This document shows, one piece after another, positions 1 through 17,649 of a stretch of DNA of 64,000 nt (position 1 is its first letter; each line of letters begins with the position of its first letter). A model generated the notes under the pieces. The model worked only from the letters and a program-made list of their open reading frames with translations. It searched no databases and was not told where the DNA came from. A program made the position numbers and the translations under genes. The DNA is from Brenneria bubanii (GTDB lineage: Bacteria > Pseudomonadota > Gammaproteobacteria > Enterobacterales > Enterobacteriaceae): assembly GCF_022378355.1 (NCBI RefSeq), contig NZ_JAKMAJ010000005.1:62001-126000 (forward strand). The letters run 5' to 3'.

Positions 1-32
1 AACGCCCTGTCGCCTGAAATATTTTCTCGCAG

Positions 33-52: not shown

Positions 53-87
53 GGCCGATGAAACAAATGGAACTGACGGTTTAAAAA

Positions 88-804: not shown

Positions 805-840
805 GGATCATCTCCGGCGGGTAAAGTTAAACTGGCGCGC

Positions 841-869
841 ATTATACGGCCTTAGCGATACAATGCCTA
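841..869 (-). promoter_or_regulatory. Probable rph promoter
   Basis: Read on the minus strand there is a perfect TATAAT -10 (complement of 841-846) and a TAGGCA -35-like hexamer (864-869) with 17-bp spacing, about 40 bp upstream of the rph start. The assignment is from consensus matching only. Confidence 0.55.
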
Positions 870-907
870 CCTTGCCTCGCGGCAATCACAAAAAGTCATA
901 GATCATC

Positions 908-932
908 AGGGTATACCCTCAGGTTATACCCT
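908..932. promoter_or_regulatory. Tandem palindromes, possible operator
   Basis: AGGGTATACCCT (908-919) is a perfect 12-bp palindrome. One base later comes AGGTTATACCCT (921-932), a near copy. Two 12-bp units with a 13-bp period, upstream of a divergent gene pair, are what a cooperative dimer-binding repressor site looks like. No specific regulator can be named. Confidence 0.35.
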
Positions 933-1171
933 ACCCATGAACAAGTATTCGTCAGCCATGGCGACGCATGGAATATTCTTGTGAAGCCCCATCACTGATG
1001 AGAAAAGCGTCATGTCGATCCACCGGCCTTGCCTGCCGCTCTTCGCTAACAAGTCTGAATCGCCGGCGTCGACGGTGCCGGTCACCGTCTCTTCTCATCG
1101 ACACCTTATGATTTTTCACAATACATTATTGTTGCCATGAATATTAAACAGCACGGGAGGCGGGATTAACC

Positions 1172-2137
1172 ATGCGCCATATGCAAATCGAAGCGGTAAA
1201 CCTGCCTTTAGCCAGACCTTTCACCATCTCCCGCGGCACCCGCAACGCCGTCTCCGTGGTTCGCGTTACGCTGGAAGAACAAGGCTTTATTGGACAAGGC
1301 GAATCAACCCCAACGCCGCACTACGGCGAGTCGGTGGAAAGCGTTTGCCGCCAGTTGCAGGAAGTCGTCGAAGCGGTGGAAAACGGCCTCAGCATCGAAC
1401 AGTTACAAACCCATTTAGCGCCGGGGGCAGCCAGAAATGCGCTCAACTGCGCGCTATGGCGGCTCAAGTCGGCATTGGAAAAGCAGAGCCTGTGGCAGAG
1501 TCTCGGCATACGGCCGCCTCAGTCCGTCACGACTGCGGAAACCCTTTCTCTCGACAGTATGGAAAACATGACCGCCGCCGCCGCCGATGCGGTTTCCCGC
1601 GGCGCATTGTTGCTGAAAATCAAACTGGATCGCGACCTGATCCTGGAGAAAGTCGCCGCCATTCGTAAAGTGGCGCCTGATACCAGGCTGATTATCGACG
1701 CTAACGAAGCCTGGAGCGGTCTGGACCTCGGCAGCCTGTTCGATGCGCTGACCCGCTATCAGATCGGTATGGTGGAACAACCACTGCCGGCAGGTAAAGA
1801 TGATGACCTGCTGCGATTTTCCCACCCCATTCCGATTTGCGCGGATGAGAGCTGCCACCACCGCGGCGATATCGCCGGACTGTGCAGCCGTTACGAAATG
1901 ATTAACATCAAGCTGGATAAGTGCGGCGGCATAAGCGAAGCCCTGGCGATGGTGGAAGAGGCGAAACTTTACGGTTTGCAGGTGATGGTCGGCTGTATGT
2001 TGGGTTCCTCCATGGCCATGGAGGCCGCTCTGCCGATCGCCACTATGGCTGTATATGTCGATCTCGACGGCCCCATCTGGCTGGCGGCGGACAGTTCGCC
2101 TTACCTGACCTATAAACTCGGCCGTATCTGGCTATGA
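1172..2137 (+). CDS. Dipeptide epimerase (L-Ala-D/L-Glu epimerase type)
   Basis: Member of the mandelate racemase/muconate-lactonising group of the enolase superfamily, closest in style to YcjG/AE epimerase, which interconverts L-Ala-D-Glu and L-Ala-L-Glu in murein peptide recycling. The 321-residue product has a capping domain (about 1-110) and a barrel. The barrel shows the KIK lysine motif near 150, LIIDANEAW (metal Asp, ~176), VEQPLP (metal Glu, ~202), ICADES (metal Asp, ~227) and INIKLDKCGG (second catalytic Lys, ~250). The start is chosen after GGGAGG at about 1156. Its stop overlaps the leader of the decayed ABC ATPase gene, so it was probably the first gene of that operon. Exact substrate specificity is inferred from family. 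Confidence 0.88.
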   Translation: MRHMQIEAVNLPLARPFTISRGTRNAVSVVRVTLEEQGFIGQGESTPTPHYGESVESVCRQLQEVVEAVENGLSIEQLQTHLAPGAARNALNCALWRLKSALEKQSLWQSLGIRPPQSVTTAETLSLDSMENMTAAAADAVSRGALLLKIKLDRDLILEKVAAIRKVAPDTRLIIDANEAWSGLDLGSLFDALTRYQIGMVEQPLPAGKDDDLLRFSHPIPICADESCHHRGDIAGLCSRYEMINIKLDKCGGISEALAMVEEAKLYGLQVMVGCMLGSSMAMEAALPIATMAVYVDLDGPIWLAADSSPYLTYKLGRIWL

Positions 2138-2157
2138 CCCAAACTACCGGAGTGACA

Positions 2158-2406
2158 ATGACGGATATCATGCAAACTGGCACGGTAACCGCCGCTGCAC
2201 CCGGTATAACGCCCAGACCGGTGCTGGAAATCGACGATCTGAGCGTCAGCTTCAGCGGGCGTTCCGGCAAACATCTGGCGCTGAAAGGCATCTTATTCAC
2301 CTTGAATAAAGGGGAAATAGTGGCCGTGGTGGGGGAAAGCGAAAAATCTGACTGGCGTTTACATTCTGGCGGATGGTTCGCTGGTTTTCGATCAGGCGCA
2401 ATTTAA
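2158..2406 (+). pseudogene. Fusion relic: ABC ATPase N-terminus joined to a binding-protein C-terminus
   Basis: The frame begins after CCGGAG with a normal dipeptide-type ATPase start (VLEIDDLSVSFS..., LNKGEIVAVVGES) but breaks inside the P-loop: the expected GESGSGKS reads GESEKSD. From about 2350, a different frame reads LTGVYILADGSLVFDQAQF followed by a stop at about 2404, which looks like the last residues of a peptide-binding protein. The simplest explanation is a deletion that removed the rest of the ATPase and most of the binding protein. The original order ATPase-binding protein-permease-permease matches the gsiABCD glutathione/peptide transporter. Non-functional. Confidence 0.75.
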
Positions 2407-2413
2407 GTAACAG

Positions 2414-2538
2414 ACCCCATAGATTTCAAGGTGCGGGACAACAGGTTGTCCCTTTACGGACAAGGCTCATGAATGAGCTTTGTCGCCCAGTCGACGCAAG
2501 GCGGGCAACGCACCTGCGGCTTGAGCTATGAAGGGATA
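2414..2538. repeat. Interspersed palindromic repeat, copy A
   Basis: A 125-bp element with imperfect terminal inverted repeats: the left end reads ccccatagatttcaaggtgc and the right end cacctgcggcttgagctatg followed by aaggga. It has the same ends as copies at 28228-28367 and 51709-51951. It sits exactly between two ruined ABC genes. It looks like a non-coding, ERIC-related or MITE-like element of Pectobacteriaceae genomes. Confidence 0.65.
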
Positions 2539-2549
2539 GGGAGAACACA

Positions 2550-3156
2550 ATGTTTGCCTATATAGTCCGACGTTTGCTGGAAATGATCCCGGTTCTGCTG
2601 GTGGTCTCCCTGTTAGTGTTCAGTTTTATCAAACTGCTGCCGGGCGATCCGGCACGTATTTACGCCGGGCCAGATGCCTCTATTGAATGAAGCCGTAGAA
2701 TCCGCACGCCAGCAACTGGGGCTGAACGATCCGCTGCCGCAGCAGTACATTCACTGGCTCGGCGGACTGTTTAAGAGGGACCTGGGGGTCACTCACCGCA
2801 CCCAGCAACCCGTCGTTGAGGCGATCGGCAACAGCTTTATGCCCACCATGTGGCTGGCGCTGGCCGGTTTTGCCTGGTCGGTGGTGCTCGGCCTTTTGCC
2901 CGGCACGCTGCCCAGCGTGATCGTTTATTTCACCATGCGTATCGGCACCAGCATCCTGACCGCCGCCAGCCTCAGTTTTATCGGCCTCGGCCCGGAACCC
3001 GACGTCCCTGAATGGGGCAACATTCTGGCCATGAGCCGTAGCCTGATGATGGCCGGCCTATGGCACGTCAGCGTTTTCCCCGGTCTGGCCATCTTTTTCA
3101 CCGTATTGGCTTTCAACCTGCTGGGCGATACGCTCGATCCCAAACTAAAAAGTTAA
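2550..3156 (+). pseudogene. Fused and frameshifted remnant of two ABC permeases (GsiC/GsiD type)
   Basis: Starts at 2550 after agggatagggag as MFAYIVRRLLEMIPVLLVVS, a DppB/GsiC-type first membrane segment, but stops at 2688 after 46 codons. The next frame (from about 2674) continues the same permease: [19 protein letters not shown] and [13 protein letters not shown]. At about residue 75 of that frame (...VVLGLLPG) the sequence jumps to the end of a DppC/GsiD-type permease ([46 protein letters not shown]). The EAA loop regions of both proteins are missing. One frameshift plus one large deletion has merged two genes, so no transporter function remains. Confidence 0.85.
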
Positions 3157-3165
3157 GGAAGCGAT

Positions 3166-4224
3166 ATGTCATCCTACCAACAGCAACAAATCGCGCTGCT
3201 GCTGCGCCGCTGGCAGAAACAGCAGCAGTTGGGAACGCCGCGTTCCGCCAGCGGGCCGCGCAATAGCATCAGCGACGTCGCCGGGGTTCGCGTGGGACAC
3301 TACACGCTGGCGAAAGGCGAAACCCAGACCGGCGTCACCGCGATTGTGCCGGCCGACAGGAACCTGTTCGCGCATCCCCTGCCCTGCGGCGCCGCGGTAT
3401 TAAACGGTTTCGCCAAGCCCGTCGGACTGGTGCAGATTGAAGAACTCGGCCTGCTGCAAACGCCGATTCTGCTCAGCAATACGCTGGCCGTGGGAACGTT
3501 ATTTACCGCACTGGCGCGGGATGCGATTGCCCATAACCCCGAATTGGGCCGTACCTTGCCCACCGTTAACCCGCTGGCGCTGGAGTGCAACGACGGCTGG
3601 CTGAACGATATTCAGGCGCTGGCCGTTACCGAACACATGGCGCGTGAGGCGCTGGAGTGCGCCGAAGAAACCTTTGCTCGCGGCAGCGTCGGCGCGGGAC
3701 GCGGCATGAGCTGTTTCGGCTTGAAAGGCGGCATCGGCACCGCATCGCGTCTGATCCCGGAATTGAACGCCACGCTGGGCGTGCTGGTATTGGCGAATTT
3801 CGGCGCCCTCAGCGCGCTGACGCTCGACGGCGTACAGATCGGCGAAGCCATTGCGCCGTTATTGCCTGAGCTGGCGCCGCAAAAAGACGCGGGCTCGATC
3901 ATCATTATTATGGCGACGGATGCGCCGCTGGATGCCCGCCAGCTGCGGCGCATCGCCAAACGCGCCGGCGCCGGATTGGGCCGAATGGGCAGCTACTGGG
4001 GCCACGGCTCCGGCGATATCGCCGTGGCCTTTTCCACAAGCCCGCACCCGCAACCGCCGGAGGACGGCAAACTGGAACCGCTGCTGAGCGCCGCCGCCGA
4101 TGCCACCGAGCACGCGGTGCTGGACGCTCTATTAAATGCGGATGCCGTAACCGGCTTTCGCGGACACCACCGTCCGGCGCTGCGTCAGGTTCTGGATCGT
4201 CTGGCGGCAACATTATCTGATTGA
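3166..4224 (+). CDS. P1-family aminopeptidase (DmpA/BapA type)
   Basis: Self-processing N-terminal-nucleophile hydrolase of MEROPS family P1. DmpA of Ochrobactrum anthropi removes N-terminal L-residues and also acts as a D-Ala esterase/amidase; relatives cleave beta-alanyl peptides. The 352-residue product has the conserved RNSISDVAGVRVGHYTL entry near residue 32 and GVTAIVPADRNLF near 56. The autoproteolysis point is a Gly-Ser step (DAGSIII, Ser244 by my count), which would free the catalytic serine of the small subunit. RBS ggaagcg lies 10 bp downstream of the ruined permease. It is followed at 10 bp by the M55 peptidase gene, so the enzyme part of the operon remains intact although its transporter is lost. 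Confidence 0.88.
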   Translation: MSSYQQQQIALLLRRWQKQQQLGTPRSASGPRNSISDVAGVRVGHYTLAKGETQTGVTAIVPADRNLFAHPLPCGAAVLNGFAKPVGLVQIEELGLLQTPILLSNTLAVGTLFTALARDAIAHNPELGRTLPTVNPLALECNDGWLNDIQALAVTEHMAREALECAEETFARGSVGAGRGMSCFGLKGGIGTASRLIPELNATLGVLVLANFGALSALTLDGVQIGEAIAPLLPELAPQKDAGSIIIIMATDAPLDARQLRRIAKRAGAGLGRMGSYWGHGSGDIAVAFSTSPHPQPPEDGKLEPLLSAAADATEHAVLDALLNADAVTGFRGHHRPALRQVLDRLAATLSD

Positions 4225-4234
4225 GGAATTGGTG

Positions 4235-5056
4235 ATGAAAGTTTTTATTTCTGCGGATATTGAGGGAATTGCAGGGGTGATGCGCCCGGAACAATGCAGT
4301 CCCGGCACGGCGGAATACCAGCTCGCACGCGGACTGATGGAGCAGGAAGTGAATGCCGCGATTGACGGCGCATTCGCCGGCGGCGCCGCTGAAGTGGTGG
4401 TGGCCGACAGCCATGCCGCCATGGTCAATCTGCGGGCGGAGAACATCGATCCCCGCGCCCGTCTGGTACAGGGCAAACCGCGTGGTTTGTCGATGATCGA
4501 GGGTCTGGAACAGCAGCAGTACGACGGCCTGATGTTTATCGGCTATCACAGCGCCGCCGGCGAATTCGGCGTGCTGGCCCATACCATTAACGGCCGAGCT
4601 TTTTACCGAGTGCAGATTAACGGTGAAATCATGGGTGAAAGCGATATCTATGCGGCGGCGGGCGCGGAATACAACACGCCGCTCTGGCTGGTCAGCGGCG
4701 ATGATCGGCTGCAACAGTGGATCGCCCGTTATTATCAGGCCTCCGGCTATGCCTGCGTAAAACGCGCCATCTCGCAGAACGCGGCTGAATCACTCAGCCC
4801 GGTCTCCGCCCGCCAGCTTATTCAGCAATCCGCCATGAAGGCGGTTCAGACCGCGCATCGCGGCGTGACCTCGCGGATCCAGGCGCCCTATCATATTGAA
4901 CTGATGGTAGCGAAACCGGTACTGGCGGATCTGTTTTGCCTGCTTCCCGGCATTGAACGACGGGATGCCATCACCGTCGGCTATACCGCTCAGACCATGG
5001 TGGAGCTGATCAGTCTGTTAAGCGCGTTTTCTTATCTGGCGACGACACAGCATTGA
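4235..5056 (+). CDS. M55 D-aminopeptidase (DppA family)
   Basis: Zinc D-aminopeptidase family typified by Bacillus subtilis DppA, a decameric cytoplasmic enzyme that releases N-terminal D-Ala from short peptides. The 273-residue product begins MKVFISADIEGIAGV, giving the metal ligands of the DxEG motif (Asp8 and Glu10). DSHAAMVN (~60) and IGYHSAAG (~104) supply the conserved histidines. The ATG at 4235 is preferred to the in-frame TTG at 4229 because GAGGAA lies 6 bp upstream of it. It sits between the P1 peptidase and isoaspartyl peptidase genes in the same direction. Confidence 0.9.
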   Translation: MKVFISADIEGIAGVMRPEQCSPGTAEYQLARGLMEQEVNAAIDGAFAGGAAEVVVADSHAAMVNLRAENIDPRARLVQGKPRGLSMIEGLEQQQYDGLMFIGYHSAAGEFGVLAHTINGRAFYRVQINGEIMGESDIYAAAGAEYNTPLWLVSGDDRLQQWIARYYQASGYACVKRAISQNAAESLSPVSARQLIQQSAMKAVQTAHRGVTSRIQAPYHIELMVAKPVLADLFCLLPGIERRDAITVGYTAQTMVELISLLSAFSYLATTQH

Positions 5057-5112
5057 TATGCGACGCCATCCCACTCCCGTCGCCCTAAACTATTGAGAAG
5101 AGAATTTGCCGT

Positions 5113-6063
5113 ATGATCAAACCAGTGATTGTGATCCACGGAGGCGCGGGCGCGCTGACCCGTTCCGCCATGAGCCCGGAGAAAGAGCGGCGCTATCTGG
5201 CTGCGTTACGATCGATTATCGCCAGCGGACAGCACATTCTGGCGCAACACGGCAGCGCGCTGGATGCGGTGACCGAGGCCGTCAGGCTGCTGGAGGAGTG
5301 CCCGCTGTTCAATGCCGGGCACGGCGCGGTATTTACCCATAACGAAACCCACGAACTGGATGCCAGTATCATGGACGGCCGTACGCTGGATGCCGGCGCC
5401 GTCAGTTGCGTCAGCCATATCCGCAACCCGGTGCTGGCGGCCAGAAGCGTATTGGAGAACAGCCAGCATGTGATGTTCACCGCCGCGGGCGCGGAGGATT
5501 TCGCCCGTCGGCAGCATTTGGACATGGTGGAACCGGACTTTTTCTCCACCGAAGAGCGTCGTCTTCAACTGCACAACGCCCAATCCGGCACAGGGAAAGT
5601 GGTGCTGGATCACGATGGCCAGACGCAGGACCCGATCGATCCCGACCGTAAGTTCGGCACCGTCGGCGCCGTGGCGCTGGACAGCGACGGCAACCTGGCG
5701 GCGGCTACCTCCACCGGCGGCATGACCAATAAACAAGCCGGACGCGTGGGCGACAGCCCCATTATCGGCGCCGGATGTTATGCCAGCAATCAGACCTGCG
5801 CCGTTTCCTGTACCGGCACCGGCGAGGTGTTTATGCGCGCCGTCGCCGCCTACGACGTCGCGGCGCTGATGGAGTACGCCGGGCTGTCGCTGCAACAGGC
5901 AGCCGATCGCGTGGTGACGGAGAAACTGAAACGGCTGGCGGGCAGCGGCGGGCTGATCGCGGTCGACGGCAACGGCGACATTGCGCTGCCGTTCAACAGT
6001 GAAGGCATGTACCGCGGCTACGGTTATATCGGGAAAGATCCGGTGGCGCGTATTTATCGCTGA
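5113..6063 (+). CDS. iaaA: Isoaspartyl peptidase / type III L-asparaginase
   Basis: Ntn-hydrolase that cleaves beta-aspartyl (iso-Asp) dipeptides and L-asparagine after self-cleavage into alpha and beta subunits. The 316 residues start MIKPVIVIHGGAGAL, the family signature. The cleavage site is KFGTVGAVALD with Thr183 as new N-terminal nucleophile; the downstream ATSTGGMTNKQAGRVGDSPI (~195-215) and CTGTGEVF segments line the active site. In E. coli iaaA is the first gene of the iaaA-gsiABCD operon, so finding it here with a decayed gsi-like transporter is consistent with a rearranged relative of that operon. A terminator hairpin follows. Confidence 0.93.
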   Translation: MIKPVIVIHGGAGALTRSAMSPEKERRYLAALRSIIASGQHILAQHGSALDAVTEAVRLLEECPLFNAGHGAVFTHNETHELDASIMDGRTLDAGAVSCVSHIRNPVLAARSVLENSQHVMFTAAGAEDFARRQHLDMVEPDFFSTEERRLQLHNAQSGTGKVVLDHDGQTQDPIDPDRKFGTVGAVALDSDGNLAAATSTGGMTNKQAGRVGDSPIIGAGCYASNQTCAVSCTGTGEVFMRAVAAYDVAALMEYAGLSLQQAADRVVTEKLKRLAGSGGLIAVDGNGDIALPFNSEGMYRGYGYIGKDPVARIYR

Positions 6064-6074
6064 TGAAAAATAAG

Positions 6075-6159
6075 CGGCTCGCGAAGTCCGCCGATTCAAG
6101 CGGACTCCGCGAGCCGACGGCGGCAAGGGGCGACCGTCTCATCCCTGAGACGCGCCCCC
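6075..6159. terminator. Two tandem hairpins between convergent genes
   Basis: The first hairpin (6075-6116) has 17-bp arms, cggctcgcgaagtccgc against gcggactccgcgagccg, with one mismatch. The second (6127-6159) pairs ggggcg/cgcccc and gtctca/tgagac. They lie between iaaA (+) and the serine hydrolase gene (-) and probably end both transcripts. Neither has a long T-tract, so efficiency is uncertain. Confidence 0.6.
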
Positions 6160-6173
6160 TCCCGTCAGCGTCC

Positions 6174-7679
6174 TCAGCGCTGATATCTCACTATTCGGCT
6201 GCGGTTCAGCAATAGCCTCATCTCGTCCCCTTCAAGCTGGATGGCAAAGCGTTTTTCCCACGGGCCATCCTGCGCCGTTGCCAACAGACGGCCTTTACCC
6301 AATGAGATCAGCGAGGCGGTTATCGCCGCCGGACCAATGCCCATCACCAGTTCGTCGCCGGCGATCGTCAATTCGCTGCGCCATTGCGGACAAAACCAGC
6401 GGCCTTGCGCCAGCTCGATGCCGTCATCCGCCGCCACCGGCAGGAAACGGCGCGGGACATGACCGATTTCCCCTTCTATCGCCGCCCCGTTCTGACGCAG
6501 CCGCATCGGCATATGGCTGGAAAGCGATACCGCCTCTGCCGGATCCTCGCCGGGATACAGCGTATCGCCCGCGCCCAGCCAGCAGGCGGTATTGCCGCTA
6601 ATTTCCAACCAGTCGCCGCCGCTGTCGGAAGCATACAGCCCCGCGGTCAGCGCATGTCCCGGCTGCGGCAACGGCAGCGCCTGCAGCGCCGCCATAATGC
6701 GCAACGCACAGTCATAAGTGGCGACGTCTTCCCGGTTGGCGACCAGCGCCACGCCTACGCCTTGCTGCGGATCGAGCAGAAAATAGGTTTTATACCCGGC
6801 ATGAGAACCGCCGTGCCCGACCCAATGCGCGGCGCCGAGGCGCGTATGGGCGATCCCCATACCGTACCCGGTCACCCGGCCATCGGCCAGTCGACGCGGC
6901 GCGCTCAGCCGCTCCAGCACGCCTGCGCCGGGCCCATCATCGCGCAGCAAGGTCTGTAGCCAGACGCTCAGATCGCGCACGCTGCCCGCCACGCTGCCTG
7001 AAGCGGATAAATGCAGGCCGGCGCTAGCCAGCTGCCAGCCATTTTTTCCGTGCCAATAGCCGGGCACCAGCCCGGGAACAATATCAAACCAGGTGTCCGG
7101 CGCGTGCAAATGAATATTCAGCGGCGCGCAGACGTGCTGTTGCAGCAAATCCGCAAACAATATGCCTTTAGCCCTTAACGCTTCCTCCACCAGACGATAG
7201 CCGGTGTTGGAATAAGAAATTTCACTGCCCGCCGGGTAGTTCAGTTCGCCCATGTCGGCTTCAAACTGAAGCAGGTCGGCGGCCTGCGTCGCGTTATAAA
7301 CCGACAGCCCCAGCAGAGACAGGGTTTCACGGATATCGTCCAGCCCCGATGTCATATCCAGCGCCTGTCCCACGGTGACCTGACCATTGGGGCCGGTCAG
7401 TTGCGGAAGATGCTGCGCCAGTTTATCCGTCAGCGCGATGTTGCCGGACATCGGCCCGGTGACCATCGCCGCGAACAGATGCTTGGTGACCGAGGCGAAA
7501 CGCACCACGCTGCTGGTGCTGAACGGCGTCCCCTGCGCCAGATCCGCCAACCCGCCGCAGCTCGCGGCCTGGATCTGCTCGCGATCGAATAGCACAATCG
7601 CCCCGCCGGGCTGACGATCGCAATCCCAGCTTTCCGTTATTGATTGAGCGACCTCTGCCGCCCGTTTCCAGTTCAACAT
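6174..7679 (-). CDS. Serine D-aminopeptidase-like hydrolase (S12, DAP type)
   Basis: A 501-residue class-C beta-lactamase-fold protein. It shows the SxxK motif SVTK (Ser63, Lys66), a YSN triad (SYSNTGYRL, ~153-155) and an HGGSHAGY third motif near 287. Motif spacing and length, with a C-terminal region of about 170 residues after the catalytic domain, match the D-aminopeptidase DAP of Ochrobactrum anthropi (520 residues) better than a beta-lactamase. It has no signal peptide, so it is cytoplasmic. Its start overlaps the end of the preceding ATPase gene by 7 bp, making it the last gene of the peptide-transporter operon. The substrate is therefore probably an imported peptide with an N-terminal D-residue (inference). 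Confidence 0.82.
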   Translation of the reverse strand: MLNWKRAAEVAQSITESWDCDRQPGGAIVLFDREQIQAASCGGLADLAQGTPFSTSSVVRFASVTKHLFAAMVTGPMSGNIALTDKLAQHLPQLTGPNGQVTVGQALDMTSGLDDIRETLSLLGLSVYNATQAADLLQFEADMGELNYPAGSEISYSNTGYRLVEEALRAKGILFADLLQQHVCAPLNIHLHAPDTWFDIVPGLVPGYWHGKNGWQLASAGLHLSASGSVAGSVRDLSVWLQTLLRDDGPGAGVLERLSAPRRLADGRVTGYGMGIAHTRLGAAHWVGHGGSHAGYKTYFLLDPQQGVGVALVANREDVATYDCALRIMAALQALPLPQPGHALTAGLYASDSGGDWLEISGNTACWLGAGDTLYPGEDPAEAVSLSSHMPMRLRQNGAAIEGEIGHVPRRFLPVAADDGIELAQGRWFCPQWRSELTIAGDELVMGIGPAAITASLISLGKGRLLATAQDGPWEKRFAIQLEGDEMRLLLNRSRIVRYQR

Positions 7680-8419
7680 GATGCCGGCTCCTCTAGCGCC
7701 ATACTTAACGCATACAGTTCGGTGGTGTGCGGATGTTTCATATGGCCCGCGCGCAACGCTTCGGCGCTGAGTATTTCTACCATTTCACCGTGCTGCATCA
7801 CGCCGACCTGCTGACAAAGGTGCGTCACCACCGCCAGATTATGGCTCACCATCAGGTAGGTCAGTTTGCGCTCCCGCCGAATATCCATCAGCAGGTTGAG
7901 TATTTCCGCCTGTACCGACACATCCAGCGCGGAAGTCGGCTCATCCAGCAGCAGCACTTCCGGCTCGGCGATCAGCGCGCGCGCGATGGCGACGCGCTGC
8001 CGCTGTCCGCCGGATAGCTGATGCGGAAAGCGAAAACGTACCGTCGACGGCAGTCCGACATCATCCAACGCCTGGGCAATACGCTGCTCAGCGCGGTCGA
8101 GACGATGCACCAGCAGGGGCTCCTGCAAGATACGGTCAATCGTCTGACGGGGGTGCAGGGAGCCGTAGGGATCCTGAAATACCATCTGCACCTGGCGGAA
8201 AAAATCGCGGCCGCGATGAGCCGATAGCGCCATACCGCCGAACAGCATGCTGCCCTGCCAGTCGTGGTTAAGCCCGGCCAACGCACGCAGTATGGTCGAC
8301 TTCCCCGAACCGCTTTCGCCGACGATGCCAAAACTGGCGCCGCTATCCACCTGAAAAGAGACGCCTTTCACTACGGCGGTCGATCCGAATGAAATACGTA
8401 AGTTATCGAGTGTAATCAT
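7673..8419 (-). CDS. Peptide ABC transporter ATP-binding protein (DppF type)
   Basis: One of two ATPases driving the dipeptide-type importer of this operon. The 248-residue protein has Walker [10 protein letters not shown] (~34-42), signature LSGGQRQRVAIARAL (~139) and Walker [13 protein letters not shown] (~160), followed by the VSHNLAVV switch region. It is shorter than classical DppF (about 330) and lacks much of the C-terminal oligopeptide-transporter extension. It overlaps the upstream ATPase gene by one base and the downstream D-aminopeptidase by 7 bp, consistent with translational coupling. Confidence 0.92.
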   Translation of the reverse strand: MITLDNLRISFGSTAVVKGVSFQVDSGASFGIVGESGSGKSTILRALAGLNHDWQGSMLFGGMALSAHRGRDFFRQVQMVFQDPYGSLHPRQTIDRILQEPLLVHRLDRAEQRIAQALDDVGLPSTVRFRFPHQLSGGQRQRVAIARALIAEPEVLLLDEPTSALDVSVQAEILNLLMDIRRERKLTYLMVSHNLAVVTHLCQQVGVMQHGEMVEILSAEALRAGHMKHPHTTELYALSMALEEPASC

Positions 8420-9246
8420 CAGTTTTTCCAGGCCGCATCACGTTTCATCACCGGGAGACGATCCCGCGGATGTTTTAAAGAAGGAAGACATGCCAGCAAG
8501 CCCTGGGTATAGGGATGCTGAGCCTGCTGCAAATCACCGGCGGCCAGCATTTCGACAATCCGGCCGGCATACATCACCGCCACCCGATCGCAAAAGTGCG
8601 AAACCAGCGGCAGATCGTGACTGATTAAAATCAGCCCCATGCCCCGCTGCGACACCAGATCGTCAATCAGTTTCAGAATATCGGCCTGTACGGTGGCATC
8701 CAGCGCGCTAGTCGGTTCATCGGCGATCAGCAGCTCCGGATCGGGCGCCAGCATCATGGCGATCATCGCACGCTGCCCCATGCCGCCCGACACCTCGTGC
8801 GGATAACGCGCCGCGACCCGTTCCGGATCCCGGATACGCACCTGCTCCAGCAGCTCGATCGCCGCCGCCATCGCCGCGCGCTTGCTGCCGCCCTGATGTT
8901 CCCGCCAGGCTTCGGCAATCTGTTCGCCGATGGTCATGACCGGGTTCAGCGAGTATTTCGGATCCTGCAAAATAAACCCGACGCGTTTGCCCCGAATCTG
9001 ACGCATGGTTTTTTCATTGGCGCCGCGCAGATCGATGCCGTCAAAGCTGAGCTTATCCGCCTGAATCTGCGCATTACCCGGCAGTAGCTGCATCAGACTG
9101 CGGGCGGTCAGCGATTTGCCCGAACCGCTCTCGCCGACGATGGCGAACTTCTCTTTGCCAATACTCAGCGACACGCCGCGAACCGCCTCGGACTTTTCGG
9201 TCCGGGTGGTAAAGGTGATACGAAGATTTTCAATTTCCACCAGCAT
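8419..9246 (-). CDS. Peptide ABC transporter ATP-binding protein (DppD type)
   Basis: The second ATPase of the importer, 275 residues. Walker A is GESGSGKSL, the Q-loop region reads [14 protein letters not shown], the signature is [15 protein letters not shown] and Walker B is [12 protein letters not shown]. The SGGMGQR signature is the form typical of DppD/OppD subunits, while its partner carries SGGQRQR. The C-terminus keeps the short [13 protein letters not shown] motif typical of this family. It is directly abutted to the permease gene upstream (no spacer). Confidence 0.92.
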
Positions 9247-10149
9247 TTAGCGCTCCTTTGGATCCAGTACGTCACGCAAACCGTCACCTAAAAAGTTAAA
9301 CGCCAGCGAAGTCAGGAAGATGGCCACGCAGGGCATCAATGGCACCCACCATTCGGTAAACAGGAAACGCCGCGCGGTGGCGATCATCGTTCCCCACTCC
9401 GGCGATGGCGGCTGCGCCCCCATACCCAGAAAGCCAAGACTGGCCGCGGTAATAATGATCGAGCTCATATCCAGCGTGATACGCACAATCAGGCTGGGTA
9501 TGCACAGCGGCATGATATGGCGCAGAATAATGCGCATCGGCGTCGCCCCAGTGAGGCGATTGGCGGCAATGAAGTCGCTGTGGCGAAACTGCATGGTTTC
9601 CGCGCGCGCCAGCCGGGCATACGGCGGCCAGGCGGTGAGCGCAATCGCCAGAATGGCGCTCTCCACACCGGGCTTTAACGCCGCTACAAACGCCAATGCC
9701 AGGATCAAGCGCGGGAACGACAGAAAAATATCCGTCACGCGCATCAGCGCTTTATCCAGCAACCCGCCGGCATACCCGGCAACGCAGCCTACCAGCAGGC
9801 CAATCGGCGCGGTGAGCGCCACAACGGCGATCACCATGCCCAGGGTGGTACGGCCGCCGTAAAGGATACGGGTATAAATGTCGCGCCCCAGTTCGTCCGT
9901 GCCTAACCAGTGCCTGGCGGAAGGCGCCGCCAGTCGGTTAGCCAGGTCCTGAAAACCAGGATCGAAAGAGGTTAATAATGGGGCCGCCAGCGACAACACC
10001 AGCACGGACAGAATAATGACCAGCCCGATCATCGCCATTGGATTGGCCCGTAACCCCAGCCACAGCCGGTAACGCCGGCCCCATACTGCCTGACGGCGTG
10101 TTACGGGCGTTTCGTCGAGCAACCAGGCTCGTGAGACAGGAAAAATCAT
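9247..10149 (-). CDS. Peptide ABC transporter permease (DppC type)
   Basis: Inner-membrane permease of 300 residues using the ATG at 10149, which overlaps the preceding permease stop as ATGA; a longer frame reaches 10191 but would overlap the upstream gene by 46 bp. It has the N-terminal OppC-like segment (RANPMAMIGLVIILSVLVLS), the HWLGTDELGRDIYTRILYG motif (~75-95) that marks DppC/OppC proteins, an EAA-type loop near FIAANRLTGATPMRIILRH, and the usual C-terminus FNFLGDGLRDVLDPKER. It pairs with the DppB-type protein. Confidence 0.92.
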   Translation of the reverse strand: MIFPVSRAWLLDETPVTRRQAVWGRRYRLWLGLRANPMAMIGLVIILSVLVLSLAAPLLTSFDPGFQDLANRLAAPSARHWLGTDELGRDIYTRILYGGRTTLGMVIAVVALTAPIGLLVGCVAGYAGGLLDKALMRVTDIFLSFPRLILALAFVAALKPGVESAILAIALTAWPPYARLARAETMQFRHSDFIAANRLTGATPMRIILRHIMPLCIPSLIVRITLDMSSIIITAASLGFLGMGAQPPSPEWGTMIATARRFLFTEWWVPLMPCVAIFLTSLAFNFLGDGLRDVLDPKER

Positions 10150-11156
10150 TTTACTCGGGGATCCCAAAGTCGATAGAGAATATCGGCACACAGATTCAGC
10201 AGAACGTACATCGTGCCGACTAATAGCGTGGAGCCAACCACCGGATTCATATCGGCATTCATCAGCGCCGTGGTGAGGTATTGCCCCAGACCCGGCCAGG
10301 AGAAGACGTTCTCCGTCACGACCGCGCCTTCAAGCAGACCGGCATAGGTCAGCGCCAACACCGTGACCAACTGCACCGCCACCGTCGGGAAGGCGTGACG
10401 CCAGATCACCCGGCGAGACGACAACCCTTTAGCCCGCGCGGTAATGACGAACTCGCCGCTCAGCGCATTGAGCATAAAGGTGCGCGTCATCCTTGTGATG
10501 TAGGCCATACTGAAGTACGCCAGTATCAGCACCGGCTGCGCCATATGGGCGACGGCGTCCTTGAAGGCGTCGTAATCGCCGGCCAACAGCGAATCCACCG
10601 TCAGCAGCCCGGTGACCTGCGGCACCATGTCCTGAAAGATGATGTCCTGACGGCCCGGGCCCGGCGCGATACCCAGCACCGCATAGAAAATCAGCAGGCT
10701 AAGCAACGCCAGCACGAATACCGGCAGAGAGTGCCCGGCCAGACAGACCACTCGGATGGTTTGATCGACCCAGGAACCCTGGCGCACCGCGGCCCATACC
10801 CCCAACGGAATACCGACCAGCGCGGCGATAATAATCGCCGCGGTCGCCAGTTCCAGCGTGGCGGGGAAAAAGCGCGCGATATCGGTAATAACCGGATTAG
10901 AGGTCAGCACGGAATTGCCCAGGTCGCCTTGCAGCAGTTGATGCAGATAATGGGCAAACTGCACCCATAACGGCTGGTCCAGCCCCATTTCCTGACGTAC
11001 GCGCGCCACCACCGATTCCGGCGCGTTATCTCCGACCACCGCCAACACCGGATCGGTCGGCATAACCCGGCCGATAAAAAATGTCAGCACCGATAAACCG
11101 AATAACGTCAGTAGCAGGCTCCCCAGCGTGCCGAGAACACGTTTTAACACCGGCAT
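10146..11156 (-). CDS. Peptide ABC transporter permease (DppB type)
   Basis: A 336-residue inner-membrane permease. Family features are the first membrane span followed by RVMPTDPVLAVVGDNAP, the QEMGLDQPLWVQFAHYL segment (~57-73), the EAA loop EFVITARAKGLSSRRVIWRH (~242) and the end ILYRLWDPRVK. A roughly 45-residue hydrophilic insertion (LGIAPGPGRQDIIFQD...DAFKDAV, ~165-210) sits where DppB proteins have a periplasmic loop. The start overlaps the binding-protein stop by one base (TAATG). Confidence 0.93.
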   Translation of the reverse strand: MPVLKRVLGTLGSLLLTLFGLSVLTFFIGRVMPTDPVLAVVGDNAPESVVARVRQEMGLDQPLWVQFAHYLHQLLQGDLGNSVLTSNPVITDIARFFPATLELATAAIIIAALVGIPLGVWAAVRQGSWVDQTIRVVCLAGHSLPVFVLALLSLLIFYAVLGIAPGPGRQDIIFQDMVPQVTGLLTVDSLLAGDYDAFKDAVAHMAQPVLILAYFSMAYITRMTRTFMLNALSGEFVITARAKGLSSRRVIWRHAFPTVAVQLVTVLALTYAGLLEGAVVTENVFSWPGLGQYLTTALMNADMNPVVGSTLLVGTMYVLLNLCADILYRLWDPRVK

Positions 11157-12751
11157 TACGCTTTTTTCACCTTATCGTAGTCACTATCGCGCAGCACCGT
11201 CATATTGACGCCGCTGATATTCTTACGACAGGCAATGGGCAGCGTACTCTGCATCATCGGAATAAACGGGCTCTGTTCCCGGTGTTCACGCTGGATGGTT
11301 TCATACAGCGCAATACGCTTATTCGCATCGCTTTCGTGCAGCGCCTGCTCGGTCAGGGTGTTGAATTTCTCGTCAGACCAGCCGCAGCGCCATGCCAACG
11401 TGCGGTTACGGGCGTTTTCGCCGTTATCGGTGTTCACGCAGAATGTTTCGGTATTCGAGTTGGGATCGAAATAGTCCGCGCCCCAGGCGGTAACCGCCAA
11501 CTGATGCTGCCGCGCGCGCATTTTGGTCAATACCTGGCGGTTTTCCGACGAGATCAGCCTGACCTTAATGCCGATGGCGCCCAGTTGCGTCTGGAGCGCC
11601 TGAGCGATATCGGGATAAGGCTGCGCGGAGTAGTGATCGAGGGTGATTTCGAAACCGTCCGGATAACCGGCTTCGGCCAGCAGGGCTTTCGCTTTGGCGA
11701 TATCCTGATGGAATGGGGTATCGTCCAGCGCCGCCGGGAAACCGCCGGGCAGAAAGCTTTGGTGCACCCGGTGAGTCAGCGGAATGATATTTTTCTGGAT
11801 ACCCTCATAATCCACCGCCCACTTCAGCGCCTGCCAGACCTGCGGCTTTTTCAGCAATTCATGCGTCGTGTTGCAAGACAGCAGCATAAGGGTGGAAACA
11901 TCCTTGCGCAGCACATGGTAATTTTCGTCATTTAAAATCGGACGCAGCTGTTCGCTGGTCAGGTCGCGGGCGATATCCACATCCCCTTTCTGCAGCATCA
12001 GCAGCTGGGCGGACGGATCGACAATATGCTTCATGATGATGCGCTGAATCTTATTGTCGGTCGGATAATGGGGGTTTTTCTCCAGAATCACGCTCTCGCT
12101 GGCCTTCCAGGCGCGCAGCGTAAAAGGACCCGACCCGGCGCTGTGCTGTTTCACCCAGGCATTGCCCAGATCGCTCCCCTGCTGATTGGCCAGCGCCGCT
12201 TTTTTCTGCACCACGCTACCCACCGGCGCCGACAGGCAGTACAGCAGAAAGCTTTCCGCCGCGGGCTGATCGAGATTAATCACCAGCGTATGCGCATCCG
12301 GCGCGGTTACGTGTTGTTCAACGTTGTCTTTGGTAAAACCGAACTGGTTAATGATAAACGCCGGACTTTTATCCAGTTTGACCGCGCGCTGCAATGAAAA
12401 CGCCGCATCGTCCGCCGTTACCGCGCTGCCGTCGGCAAATTTGGCGTTGGGGTTGATATGGAAAGTAAAGGTTTTGCCGCCGTTGCTGACTTCCCAACTG
12501 GACGCCAGCTCGCCCTTGACTTCACGGGGTTTCTCCGGGTTCGGCATCACCAGACGCTGATAGAGGTTACCGGCGATTTCAGAACCGATAGCTTCGAAAC
12601 TCTCATGCGGATCAAGGCTGGTCATATTGTCGAGCTGCATCGCCATCACTAGCATGGTGGGCGGGGTAGCGGCAAAGGCGGAGTGAAGATTCAGATAGGA
12701 AAGAAACGGTACGGCGCCGCACCCGGCAAGAAAATGTCTCCTGGTAATCAT
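11156..12751 (-). CDS. Peptide ABC transporter substrate-binding protein, Tat-like leader
   Basis: Family 5 extracellular solute-binding protein (DppA/OppA type), 531 residues, periplasmic. It begins MITRRHFLAGCGAVPFLSYL. The RRHFL motif followed by a moderately hydrophobic stretch and AFA cleavage box resembles a twin-arginine signal, unusual but known for some members of this family. Family landmarks are LDPHESFEAIGSEIAGNLYQ (~47), GKTFTFHINPNAKFADGS (~97) and GSGPFTLRAWKASESV (~206). It is the first gene of the operon and is transcribed divergently from the M19 dipeptidase gene. Confidence 0.92.
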   Translation of the reverse strand: MITRRHFLAGCGAVPFLSYLNLHSAFAATPPTMLVMAMQLDNMTSLDPHESFEAIGSEIAGNLYQRLVMPNPEKPREVKGELASSWEVSNGGKTFTFHINPNAKFADGSAVTADDAAFSLQRAVKLDKSPAFIINQFGFTKDNVEQHVTAPDAHTLVINLDQPAAESFLLYCLSAPVGSVVQKKAALANQQGSDLGNAWVKQHSAGSGPFTLRAWKASESVILEKNPHYPTDNKIQRIIMKHIVDPSAQLLMLQKGDVDIARDLTSEQLRPILNDENYHVLRKDVSTLMLLSCNTTHELLKKPQVWQALKWAVDYEGIQKNIIPLTHRVHQSFLPGGFPAALDDTPFHQDIAKAKALLAEAGYPDGFEITLDHYSAQPYPDIAQALQTQLGAIGIKVRLISSENRQVLTKMRARQHQLAVTAWGADYFDPNSNTETFCVNTDNGENARNRTLAWRCGWSDEKFNTLTEQALHESDANKRIALYETIQREHREQSPFIPMMQSTLPIACRKNISGVNMTVLRDSDYDKVKKA

Positions 12752-12809
12752 AAATACCTCAACACGTTGATATTAAATAGTTTTTTTGAATTTAATTACA
12801 GATTTTGTC

Positions 12810-12840
12810 TTGACATCGACAAAGCAGGTTGGCTTAAAAT
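12810..12840 (+). promoter_or_regulatory. Putative promoter for the M19/LysR side
   Basis: TTGACA (12810-12815) is a perfect -35 hexamer and TTAAAA/TAAAAT (12834-12840) a -10-like hexamer at 18-19 bp spacing, reading toward the M19 dipeptidase gene about 115 bp downstream. Consensus match only. Confidence 0.45.
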
Positions 12841-12846
12841 GAATGT

Positions 12847-12906
12847 ACTAAGGGATGGTTTTTTCCTTAGTGGCGGTTTGTTCATTTTTGGTGCAAAGCA
12901 CCAAAA
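12847..12906. promoter_or_regulatory. Two inverted repeats in the divergent control region
   Basis: ACTAAGG (12847-12853) pairs with CCTTAGT (12865-12871), and TTTTGGTGC (12886-12894) pairs perfectly with GCACCAAAA (12898-12906) across AAA. They lie downstream of the putative -10, between the divergently transcribed binding-protein and M19 genes. The second repeat, with 9-bp arms and a T-N-A-like centre, is a reasonable operator candidate for the LysR-type protein encoded at 14187, but binding is not shown. Confidence 0.4.
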
Positions 12907-12958
12907 TAGAGCAAGCTAACGCACCATTGCATCGCATCCAGAGCCGGTACTTGTGACT

Positions 12959-14035
12959 ATGTCAGACAATCAGTTTCCCATCATTGAACAAATCCCTGTC
13001 TTCGACGGACATAACGACGTACTCCTGCGTCTTTGGTCTTCTCACCGGGATAATCCCGTAGAAGCCTTTCTAAACGGACCGGCCGCCGGGCAGATCGATC
13101 TGCCTCGTATCCGGCAAGGCCGCTTTGCCGGCGGTTTGTTCGCCGCTTATGTTCCCTCACCCAAAGCACCAGCAAAATCCGTACCAGAAAATTCAGGCCT
13201 CTTTGTCCCCCATGCCACGCCGACGCAGGAAAACGCCAGAGACGTCACGTTTTCGCTGATTTCCACCCTGCTTCGCATTGAGGCGGCGTCCAACGGGCAA
13301 GCCAAAATCTGCCGCAGCGCGGCCGACATCCGCCAGTGCATGGCGAAAGGCGTGCTGGCGATGGTCATGCATATTGAAGGGGCCGAAGCGATCGATCCCG
13401 ATCTGGAACTGCTGGATATCCTGCACGCGGCCGGATTACGCTCGCTGGGGCCGCTATGGAGCCGGCCGAATATTTTTGGTCAGGGGGTTCCGTTCCGCTT
13501 TCCTTCCTCTCCTGATACCGGAGAGGGATTGACGGAAGCCGGTAAGCGCCTGGTACGGGCCTGTAATGCCAAACGCATTATGGTGGATCTGGCGCATATG
13601 GACGAAAAAGGCTTCTGGCAAACCGCCGGCATCACTGACGCGCCGCTGGTCGCCAGCCACTCCAATGCGCACGCGCTTTGCGCCCAGTCTCGAAATCTGA
13701 CGGACAAACAGCTGGCCGCCATTCGGGAAAGCCAGGGGTTCGTCGGCGTAAATTTCGGCACCATGTTCCTGCGTGAAGATGGGAAAAAAGATCCCGAAGC
13801 GACGGTCGGCGAAATCGTCCGCCATGTTGATTACCTGCTGACAAAACTGGGTGAAGACGGCGTCGGTCTGGGTTCAGACTTCGACGGCACCACCGTGCCG
13901 CCGGATCTGGTTGACGTCGCCGGTCTGCCGATATTGGTCAAGGCCCTGGCGAAACAGGGCTACGATCGGCCTTTACTGGAGAAGATTTGCTACGGTAACT
14001 GGCTGCGCGTACTGGAAGCCACCTGGGGCGCGTAA
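12959..14035 (+). CDS. Membrane dipeptidase family protein (M19, renal dipeptidase type)
   Basis: Binuclear-zinc dipeptidase of family M19, whose members hydrolyse dipeptides including those with a C-terminal D-residue. The 358-residue product shows the DGHNDVLLRL motif (HxD metal ligands, ~20), HIEGAEAID (bridging Glu, ~140), ASHSNAHAL (metal His, ~230) and GLGSDFDGT (Asp, ~305). No signal peptide is seen, so cytoplasmic action on imported peptides is likely. An in-frame GTG lies six bases upstream of the ATG used here. It is divergent from the ABC operon and followed by the LysR gene. Confidence 0.9.
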   Translation: MSDNQFPIIEQIPVFDGHNDVLLRLWSSHRDNPVEAFLNGPAAGQIDLPRIRQGRFAGGLFAAYVPSPKAPAKSVPENSGLFVPHATPTQENARDVTFSLISTLLRIEAASNGQAKICRSAADIRQCMAKGVLAMVMHIEGAEAIDPDLELLDILHAAGLRSLGPLWSRPNIFGQGVPFRFPSSPDTGEGLTEAGKRLVRACNAKRIMVDLAHMDEKGFWQTAGITDAPLVASHSNAHALCAQSRNLTDKQLAAIRESQGFVGVNFGTMFLREDGKKDPEATVGEIVRHVDYLLTKLGEDGVGLGSDFDGTTVPPDLVDVAGLPILVKALAKQGYDRPLLEKICYGNWLRVLEATWGA

Positions 14036-14088
14036 TGTAAACGCGGGCACGCGGACAAGGGAGCACCAGCCGTTGCTGTATGGCGTGG

Positions 14089-14130
14089 ATATTGCATATT
14101 GCATATTGCATATTGCATATTGCATATTGC
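14089..14130. repeat. Six tandem copies of the heptamer ATATTGC
   Basis: A perfect 6 x 7-bp array lies in the 151-bp gap between the M19 stop and the LysR start. The unit length is not a multiple of three, so slippage changes spacing by 7 bp. It is the kind of simple-sequence tract that can vary in copy number by replication slippage. Confidence 0.9.
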
Positions 14131-14186
14131 AGATAGCGTTGTGCCTCAGGGTACAACCACCACCAAAGATACACGGGCGTGCTCCC

Positions 14187-15095
14187 ATGCGTTTACGACA
14201 TATCGAAATTTTTCAAGCCATTGTGCAGGCCGGCACCATCAGCGGCGCCGCCCGTTTGCTTAACGTCTCCCAACCCAACGTCAGCCGGGTGCTTAACCAC
14301 GCGGAGCAACAGCTTGGTTTCGCCCTGTTTGAGCGACATACACAAGGCATGATTGCCACGGAAGAAGGCCGTAGCCTGATCCCCAAAGTGCAGGAGCTTT
14401 ACCAACAGCTACAACACATCAGCGCATTGACCGAGCAGATTAAAATCGGTAAAGAACGGTCCGTTCGTCTGGGTGCCGCTCATGCGTTCGGCCAGATGAT
14501 TGTGGCGCCGGCGTTGGTGGAATTTCATAAGCAGGAAACGCTGGTCAACGTGGAGCTGGTAACTGAACATTTCAGCACCCTTTGTCTGAATATTTTGCAA
14601 AACCAGCTCGATTTCGCCCTGGTGTTCGGACAGCAGGTGGATACGGCATTGTTGGCGGAACCGCTGTTTCAGTCGTCCATGGTGGCGCTGCTGCCTAAAG
14701 ACAGCCCGGTGGACGGGCCGGTATCGCTCGGCTGGTTATGTGCAAATAACCTGTTGATGATGCAGCACCAGGATCCGCTCGGACAGGTGTTGCATCGCGC
14801 ATTACACGACAGGGATCTGAAGCCGGCGGCCTCGCTGTACATCAAAACCTACTCGATCATTGCGGATATGGTGCTGGCCGGCGGCGGCGTCGGGGTCGTC
14901 GATCTCTTTACCGCCTGCCGCTATGCCGGCCTGCTCAAAATCGTGCCGATCGATCAGCCGCTACCGTTCGAAGTCACGCTGATTAGCCGCCGGGATAACC
15001 CGCAGTCGCGGGCGACATTGCAGTTGAAACAGATGATGAAGAATAAATGCCGGGAGATCGCCAGACAAAATGAAGCGCTGCTGCATGGCGTATAG
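14187..15095 (+). CDS. LysR-type transcriptional regulator
   Basis: A 302-residue regulator starting MRLRHIEIFQAIVQAG. The winged helix-turn-helix occupies residues 1-60 (GTISGAARLLNVSQPNVSRV) and the effector-binding domain about 90-300. It is co-directional with the M19 gene and 150 bp from it, so it most likely controls the peptide island; the ligand is unknown. The same frame stays open upstream through the heptamer array into the M19 coding region, but the conserved LysR N-terminus and the following HTH argue for the ATG at 14187. The SD sequence is weak. Confidence 0.88.
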   Translation: MRLRHIEIFQAIVQAGTISGAARLLNVSQPNVSRVLNHAEQQLGFALFERHTQGMIATEEGRSLIPKVQELYQQLQHISALTEQIKIGKERSVRLGAAHAFGQMIVAPALVEFHKQETLVNVELVTEHFSTLCLNILQNQLDFALVFGQQVDTALLAEPLFQSSMVALLPKDSPVDGPVSLGWLCANNLLMMQHQDPLGQVLHRALHDRDLKPAASLYIKTYSIIADMVLAGGGVGVVDLFTACRYAGLLKIVPIDQPLPFEVTLISRRDNPQSRATLQLKQMMKNKCREIARQNEALLHGV

Positions 15096-15169
15096 CGCAA
15101 CCGCGCCCCACCAACGGGCCGCCTGACCGCCCGTCCGTCGATTTTGTTCTACCCTGCCCTGGAACAGGT

Positions 15170-15175
15170 TATAAT
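15170..15175 (+). promoter_or_regulatory. Probable yicC -10 element
   Basis: A perfect TATAAT lies 33 bp upstream of the yicC start. No good -35 hexamer is evident at 17 bp. Confidence 0.45.
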
Positions 15176-15207
15176 CCCTTCATCATTTACTCTACAGGTA
15201 TGCACCA

Positions 15208-16071: not shown

Positions 16072-16137
16072 TTTCCACCCTGCTCCACCAACTGCCACAA
16101 CGCCCTGTTTTCAGGGCGTTTTTGTTGCCATCAACGT
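16051..16137 (+). repeat. Integration-site repeat copy 1 (yicC 3' end)
   Basis: The last codons of yicC, its terminator and following bases (cagatccaaaatatcgaata ... gccatcaacgt). Related copies at 17129-17215 and 20037-20110 share this arrangement in the same orientation. Elements that integrate by tyrosine recombinase at the 3' end of yicC are known in Vibrio and other gamma-proteobacteria, so this is best read as the att core at the chromosomal side. Confidence 0.85.
16096..16126 (+). terminator. yicC rho-independent terminator
   Basis: Hairpin aacgccctg-tttt-cagggcgtt followed by TTTTGTT. It is part of the duplicated att repeat, so similar terminators recur at 17177-17202 and 20071-20098. 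Confidence 0.85.
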
Positions 16138-16337
16138 AGATTTGTCACTGATAGCTCTACAGGCTATTAGCTGTATGGTCCACTTCTCGCTGTGAGCGAG
16201 CGGATGTTACGACTTTCAAAGCGATGAGATCCACGAAAGATTACTGTAATTATATTAAGTTAATCAATTCAAAACATGAAAGCTCTAAATATGAGACGAT
16301 AGCAGGAACCCATGAGTAGATAAGGAAGTTAAAACAC

Positions 16338-17645: not shown

Positions 17646-17649
17646 GTAA

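Follow-up and report, generated by a model that had tools for sequence, protein, structure and literature searches.

A conserved modular gene cluster between rph and yicC of Brenneria bubanii, with putative roles in the catabolism of D-residue or isopeptide-bonded peptides

The subject of this study is a cluster of peptidase, epimerase and peptide importer genes at positions 1172 to 15095 of a 64,000-nucleotide stretch of the Brenneria bubanii genome (contig NZ_JAKMAJ010000005.1, positions 62,001 to 126,000), hereafter the window, which lies in a 309-kb contig of a 4.89-Mb genome assembled in 533 contigs. Pfam matches were counted only above the curated cut-off, and the proteins were further scored with NCBIfam curated models. 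Pfam places rph, coding for RNase PH (88-804, minus strand), at the left flank and yicC (15208-16071) at the right flank, and between them it recognizes six enzymes, two ATPases, two permeases, a solute-binding protein and a LysR-type regulator. The initial annotation had reported six enzymes of these families with an ATP-binding cassette (ABC) importer and a LysR regulator between rph and yicC, and Pfam confirmed this; its open reading frames (ORFs), strands and coordinates were also correct. The importer that it described is present but the remnants of a second one, at 2137-3156, had been overlooked. The observation is real, and what it describes is a modular cluster, built of known families and conserved among relatives, not a unique island. 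Module 1 consists of (dgcN-)dgcA, a Gsi-like importer, the peptidases P1 and M55, (iaaA) and LysR, and module 2 consists of an S12 hydrolase with a Dpp-like importer, on the minus strand, and an M19 dipeptidase.

Module 1 opens with dgcA1 (1172-2137, plus strand; Pfam MR_MLE_N/C), coding for a member of the enolase superfamily that is either an N-acetyl-D-Glu racemase or an L-Ala-D/L-Glu epimerase (AEE). DgcA1 scored 410.6 bits with the NCBIfam DgcA model (NF042940, cut-off 400) and 365.3 bits with the AEE model (NF011708, cut-off 343), and its nearest solved structure is the AEE 1jpd. The presumed catalytic lysines, metal ligands and Asp297 (K149, K151, D176, E202, D225, K247 and D297) are found in 63 of 63 aligned DgcA sequences, 18 from loci without dgcN and 45 linked to dgcN, after the stop-bearing sequences of loci L045 and L091 and those with less than 95% coverage had been dropped. 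The idea that the DgcA of dgcN-less loci is distinct at fixed sites was rejected because there were 0 fixed differences between the 18 and the 45 sequences. Position 178, two residues past the ligand D176, is Arg in all ten Pectobacterium sequences (L025-L034), Asn in seven and Thr in one of the other eight dgcN-less sequences, and Asn in 45 of the 45 dgcN-linked ones. The DgcA of a Klebsiella plasmid passes both models, one Pectobacterium copy (L025) passes the AEE model only and one Symbiopectobacterium copy (L037) passes neither. No dgcN match was found at positions 1-20000 of the window, and dgcA1 is therefore without the adjacent dgcN of the DgcA pathway. On a different contig the genome has a dgcN scoring 546.5 bits; the second locus (L149, 7371-10259, on contig C4 of our genome G000) carries dgcN-dgcA with a D-amino-acid transaminase gene; its dgcN2-linked paralogue, DgcA2, scored 504.6 bits on the DgcA model. 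A dgcN match is present in all 10 Brenneria genomes searched, and in these genomes only genes of the DgcA1 and DgcA2 types match DgcA1 at 46% identity or more, the others being at 22-35%. Since there is no further strong match to DgcA1 and a dgcN-dgcA pair exists separately, the gene content suggests that DgcA1 may be a dipeptide epimerase.

Three peptidases follow on the plus strand. The P1/S58 peptidase of the DmpA/BapA family (3166-4224; Pfam Peptidase_S58, 347.5 bits) is an Ntn-hydrolase that carries the GSIIIIMATDAP motif, with Ser244 and the Gly243-Ser244 pair of the autoprocessing site in place. Its nearest solved relatives are 2drh (named a hypothetical D-aminopeptidase), 5tzb (D-aminopeptidase), DmpA 1b65 and BapA 3n2w (beta-peptidyl aminopeptidase). 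The DppA-like member of the M55 D-aminopeptidase family (4235-5056 from the ATG at 4235, within an ORF of 4229-5056; Pfam Peptidase_M55, 309 bits) was aligned to DppA 1hi9, the only solved M55 relative, and has D8, E10, H60, H105 and E135 at the metal-ligand positions of DppA; it scored 167.1 bits on the DppA equivalog (NF058634), below the cut-off of 430. The IaaA-like isoaspartyl peptidase (5113-6063; Pfam Asparaginase_2, 390 bits; 415 bits with 2zak) has the nucleophile Thr183 in place and passes the Pfam cut-off, and it scored 474.3 bits on the IaaA equivalog (NF007589), whose cut-off is 567.

Between dgcA1 and the P1 gene, at 2137-3156 on the plus strand, lies what is left of the GsiABCD-like importer of module 1, recognized from tblastn pieces and by blastn against the intact importers of Brenneria genomes G150 and G151 and locus L101. 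The remnant retains ~58 residues from the beginning of the ATPase, the last part of the binding protein, the beginning of permease B and the last part of permease C. Compared with G150, ~3.2 kb and ~1.2 kb have been deleted, the ends of both deletions sharing short words, and a small change in length shifts the frame. The importer frames are open in the seven Brenneria genomes that retain this importer, and the module-1 binding protein has a best match of only 44% identity in its own genome versus 84-100% in 7 of the 10 Brenneria genomes, the genome that supplied the query among them. An assembly artefact is unlikely because the remnant lies inside the 309-kb contig and combines two separate deletions with a frameshift. 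Judged from its sequence, the importer of module 1 no longer works in this strain, and module 2 codes for the only intact importer of the island.

The S12 serine hydrolase of module 2 (6174-7679, minus strand; Pfam Beta-lactamase, 137 bits) forms its own clade related to the D-aminopeptidase DAP and has S63-x-x-K66, Y156 and H289 in place. On the curated DAP equivalog (NF009622) it scored 93.3 bits over residues 22-344 of 501, against a cut-off of 443, and its best solved relative, DAP 1ei5, matches weakly (55 bits over residues 22-298); the label 'DAP-type' previously given to it says more than these scores support. Pfam and NCBIfam then identify two ABC ATPases, DppF-like and DppD/GsiA-like (7673-9246), and Pfam two permeases (9247-11156) and a family-5 solute-binding protein, SBP_bac_5 (11156-12751), all on the minus strand and together making up the importer. 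The M19 dipeptidase (12953-14035, plus strand; Pfam Peptidase_M19, 319.9 bits; 419 bits with 3fdg/3ly0) has the zinc ligands H18, D20, E140, H213 and H234 in place when numbered from the ATG at 12959. With this, catalytic or metal-binding residues were found in place in all six enzymes. By eye, none of the six enzymes has an evident signal sequence at its start, and a twin-arginine-type N-terminus is present on the module-2 binding protein in 13 of 13 sequences read, the window included. Taken together, these termini suggest that import precedes hydrolysis inside the cell.

The LysR-type regulator (14187-15095, plus strand; Pfam helix-turn-helix and substrate domains) lies in an ORF of 13851-15095, homology placing the start of LysR proper near 14187, and it shares 75% identity with the LysR located after M55 on the Klebsiella plasmid. 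Upstream of dgcA, at 910-930, is a 21-bp palindrome with the consensus GGTATAACCTNAGGTTATACC, a probable operator of module 1. Its core, ATAAC-N5-GTTAT, is a T-N11-A box, the layout of LysR-type sites. At up to 3 mismatches it is the sole site in the 4.887 Mb of the genome searched, and a control pattern gave 0 sites. We looked for it in 64 loci with a placeable dgcN or dgcA start, namely 62 of the 80 loci described below, the Klebsiella plasmid and the window; some of the 64 also contributed to the consensus, which was built on sequences of Brenneria, Pectobacterium and Symbiopectobacterium. In each of the 64 loci the best upstream match had 5 mismatches or fewer (0 mismatches in 6 loci, 1 in 10, 2 in 8, 3 in 15, 4 in 16 and 5 in 9), versus 7-11 in 64 of 64 control windows inside operons. 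The island LysR may bind this site, and a palindrome unique in the genome gives a direct handle on the inducer. No operator common to both modules was found, the best match to the palindrome at module 2 having 8-11 mismatches in 8 loci. The palindrome also persists as a fossil in Brenneria genomes with little or nothing of the island (L141, 11731-11751; L142, 10544-10564).

Both modules are found again in the Enterobacterales, in many named genera. We fetched 80 loci from genome contigs by likeness to M55, so that the sample is one of M55 neighbourhoods and not of genomes at large. The loci were cut at 10 kb of flank on each side, which makes the gene counts lower limits, and a gene was counted as present if 70% of it was covered above the identity threshold with pieces summed, so that some split genes, for example in L091, were scored as present. 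P1 is in 74 of the 80 loci, the full set of four genes for importer 1 in 63, dgcA in 60, dgcN in 45 and IaaA in 25. A complete module 2 is in 21, in every case together with M19 and importer 1. Because P1 accompanies M55 in 74 of 80 loci and the modules recur in many genera, the association of these genes is beyond chance. S12 without a complete module 2 was seen in L040, a short contig, and in L045 (Symbiopectobacterium), where P1 is missing and genes of importer 1 and module 2 are cut or split. In a Plautia stali symbiont (L100, 6602-10681) module 1 lies in broken pieces from dgcN to M55. Of 149 genomes sampled at the level of the family, 21 had an M55 match (18 with at least 66% identity, 3 with 40-41%), and in the sample of the order S12 matches of at least 56% occurred in 4 of 295 genomes, the own genome included, the others among the matches listed being at 32% or less. 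The two modules are adjacent in genome G382. In G024 module 2 is on a different contig from M55, both contigs being short; in G035 it lies more than 100 kb from both ends of a contig that has no M55, which shows the modules to be separable. Outside the order, seven alphaproteobacterial plasmid loci were chosen from 88 plasmid records with an S12 match, one of them, from Microvirga, for its M55. On the Microvirga plasmid M55 and importer 1 adjoin M19 and a complete module 2, at 45-79% identity, and next comes dat, the gene for D-amino-acid transaminase; P1 was not detected at this locus. Among the seven, dat is near S12 in five and P1 is present in four.

The interval between rph and yicC holds the cluster in Pectobacterium, Brenneria, Lonsdalea and Symbiopectobacterium, rph being cut by the end of the stretch in some loci, and in Dickeya and Prodigiosinella the cluster is beside rph, with no yicC seen within the stretch read. 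Ten Brenneria genomes make up a natural series in this interval, from the complete pair of modules through module 1 alone and a strain with a dead importer to an empty gap. Both modules are present in G150 and G151; in G114, G152, G153, G155 and G156 module 1 stands alone, and in G155 iaaA is split and a stop lies in the lysR stretch. The window genome has module 2 and the module-1 enzymes without the module-1 importer, G154 retains iaaA with a scrap of lysR, and G149 has no island gene. Since G149 and G154 keep the palindrome, loss is the best explanation for their lack of the island. That this strain alone acquired the island is rejected on two counts, the same rph-side location in related genera and the palindrome in the island-less G149. 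These comparisons also bear on several points of the initial annotation. Its reading held for the conserved clustering, the catalytic residues and the links to transaminases, and the scattering in relatives that would have spoken against it was not seen, the gene set being conserved as clusters. The comparison of the rph-yicC gap that it called for was carried out for Brenneria and Pectobacterium, the Dickeya loci showing the rph side only. Its placement of the island as a break in the usual rph/yicC pair gives way to an ordinary position shared across the Pectobacteriaceae, and its single pathway to two separable modules, each with its own importer. Its count of three D-aminopeptidases is unproven, because the S58 relatives are named variously and S12 falls below the DAP equivalog cut-off.

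In the window the frames are uninterrupted for every enzyme gene, for module 2 and for lysR. The ratio of nonsynonymous to synonymous divergence (dN/dS) between the window and G150 is 0.03-0.11 for the 11 island genes compared, and for LysR against G151 it is 0.05. On the window branch the nonsynonymous/synonymous (N/S) changes were 7/43 for P1, 6.5/36.5 for M55 and 12.2/38.8 for IaaA, which resembles the G150 branch (5/28, 6.5/25.5 and 10/42, respectively). The loss of the importer is undated, which makes this a weak test of selection. The low dN/dS values indicate purifying selection on the enzymes and, short of proof, support their continued use.

Peptides with D-amino acids and isopeptide bonds resist ordinary proteases. 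We propose, with moderate confidence, that the locus is a LysR-associated catabolic cluster for D-residue or isopeptide-bonded peptides. The enzyme families and their residues, the conserved clusters, the Microvirga locus, dat and P1 near S12 on the alphaproteobacterial plasmids, the dgcN-dgcA-transaminase locus of this genome, the lack of strong DgcA1 matches beyond DgcA1 and DgcA2, an M14 peptidase in this genome and the low dN/dS values speak for it. Such peptides would be captured by the binding protein with the twin-arginine-type export signal and taken up by the module-2 ABC transporter, the Gsi-like importer of module 1 being dead, so that importer 2 would feed the module-1 enzymes as well. 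They would be cut in the cytoplasm by the aminopeptidases P1, M55 and S12, the isoaspartyl peptidase and the M19 dipeptidase. DgcA1 would epimerise D-Glu within a dipeptide, for example L-Ala-D-Glu, or in the form of N-acetyl-D-Glu produced with the dgcN elsewhere in the genome, and the freed D-amino acids would pass to the D-amino-acid transaminase and DgcN/DgcA2 of the second locus. If true, this would explain the use of cell-wall debris or non-ribosomal peptides by plant-associated enterobacteria and by plasmid-bearing Klebsiella.

Several findings weigh against this proposal. S58 and S12 are families of broad specificity, and the reaction of DgcA1 is ambiguous because it passes two different curated models. 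No YkfA-like or YkfC-like enzyme and no transaminase turned up in the island ORFs that were scanned, the scan for the latter being confined to these ORFs. The upstream regions of modules 1 and 2 differ, module 2 being without the palindrome in the 8 loci. In the alphaproteobacterial plasmids only three of the seven loci have the module-2 importer, one of them in pieces, two have S12 alone and two have M19 and S12 without the importer. Finally, dgcA has 17.5 N/37.5 S changes on the window branch versus 6/30 on the G150 branch, an excess of replacements that could mean relaxed constraint.

A wider form of the proposal, which we offer only tentatively, is that the full two-module set (DgcN-DgcA, Gsi-like importer, P1, M55 and IaaA; Dpp-like importer, S12 and M19) is an undescribed modular pathway for D-residue and isopeptide substrates, common to the Enterobacterales, to conjugative Klebsiella plasmids (module 1) and to alphaproteobacteria. 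Module 1 would be under LysR and a dedicated 21-bp operator, and the importers would be interchangeable, so that one can be lost with the enzymes kept. No description of this gene combination was found among the matches listed in the open-access literature.

The likeliest alternative, improbable as we consider it, is a narrow salvage of murein peptides in which DgcA1 is the L-Ala-D/L-Glu epimerase, in the role of YcjG, and the peptidases finish the stem peptides. It would account for 1jpd as the nearest structure and the passing of the AEE model, for Asp297 being kept in all 63 DgcA sequences, and for the lack of a strong match beyond DgcA1 and DgcA2 in the 10 Brenneria genomes. Neither a gamma-D-Glu-DAP endopeptidase nor an LD-carboxypeptidase is among the island ORFs scanned, however, and isoaspartyl and S58 peptidases are not known to have a part in that pathway. 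An M14 peptidase is present in 7 of the 10 Brenneria genomes, the own genome included, but it is missing in G149, G152 and G155, the latter two of which have module 1 with dgcA. The ykf genes of Bacillus subtilis adjoin dppB-E (excerpt of PMC2954226), which fits murein salvage, whereas the company of dgcN and M55 in 45 of 80 loci points to free D-Glu. Less probable still is a general scavenging of oligopeptides with no special role for D-residues, the clustering reflecting a shared peptide supply for broad families. The importers are indeed of ordinary Dpp and Gsi types, and the S58, S12 and IaaA families also take L-substrates or amides; against this, the M55 and M19 families are known mainly for D-residue substrates, and dgcN-dgcA and dat are repeatedly in their company. 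We regard as equally improbable that the island is decaying in this strain and the pathway no longer works, as the destroyed importer 1, the scrap in G154, the empty interval of G149, the split iaaA and the stop in the lysR stretch of G155 and some excess of dgcA replacements would have it, since the enzyme genes, module 2 and lysR are open with low dN/dS and the window branch has no surplus of replacements in P1, M55 or IaaA, weak as that test is.

Beyond yicC, positions 16000-24000 of the window have a low GC content (35-48%) and code for DUF3916, DUF3289 and DUF943 proteins, with an integrase-like fragment at 17361-17834 (by eye, without a Pfam match) and an rve transposase fragment at 20165-20653; this is a probable mobile or exchange region. 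A further SBP_bac_5 protein is encoded at 28349-30016, near a LysR-like ORF at 26618-27517 (by eye).

Among known replicons, Klebsiella pneumoniae plasmid pKPN_CZ (NC_019390, L023), typed as IncFIB/IncFII and conjugative, has LysR, tautomerase, dgcN, dgcA, importer, P1, M55 and LysR in the order of module 1; it differs in being plasmid-borne and in having neither iaaA nor module 2 in the 20.8 kb read. Plasmid records with an M55 match at 60-80% identity numbered 35. Neorhizobium CP030829 shares the module-2 arrangement, M19 being divergent from SBP-B-C-D-F-S12 with dat and dmpA within ~5 kb, but the 25.5 kb read there lack the module-1 importer, M55 and dgcA. The DgcN-DgcA pathway for D-glutamate (Yu et al. 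2023, ISME J, as cited in an excerpt of PMC12363236) is met here in that dgcN accompanies M55 in the 45 loci and precedes dgcA in the Klebsiella plasmid copy. At the Brenneria and Pectobacterium locus, in contrast, dgcN is absent and dgcA heads a peptide cluster. The E. coli iaaA-gsiABCD operon likewise has IaaA next to a Gsi-type importer but differs in gene order and partners. The intact module-1 importer of Brenneria L101 has its best scores with the GsiA, GsiB and GsiD models, all three below the equivalog cut-offs (828 versus 1077, 505 versus 594 and 395 versus 484). In E. coli, 5375 of 5426 genomes match some part of P1-M55-iaaA and 0 cover 80% of it; among the 10 rows listed, five chromosomes have the P1-M55 pair (73% DNA identity) and five have iaaA only. 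The B. subtilis region has the order dppABCDE-ykfABCD, with the M55 peptidase DppA, an importer, the epimerase YkfB and YkfC. The adjacency of ykfA-D and dppB-E is given in the excerpt of PMC2954226 cited above. Compared with dpp-ykf, the island ORFs scanned are without the YkfA LD-carboxypeptidase and the YkfC endopeptidase of that cluster, and the island adds S58, IaaA, S12, M19, LysR and a second importer. Both bring together M55, a family-5 ABC peptide importer and an epimerase of the L-Ala-D/L-Glu type and, by this analogy, the cluster is likely to be close in kind to the dpp-ykf murein-peptide genes of B. subtilis.

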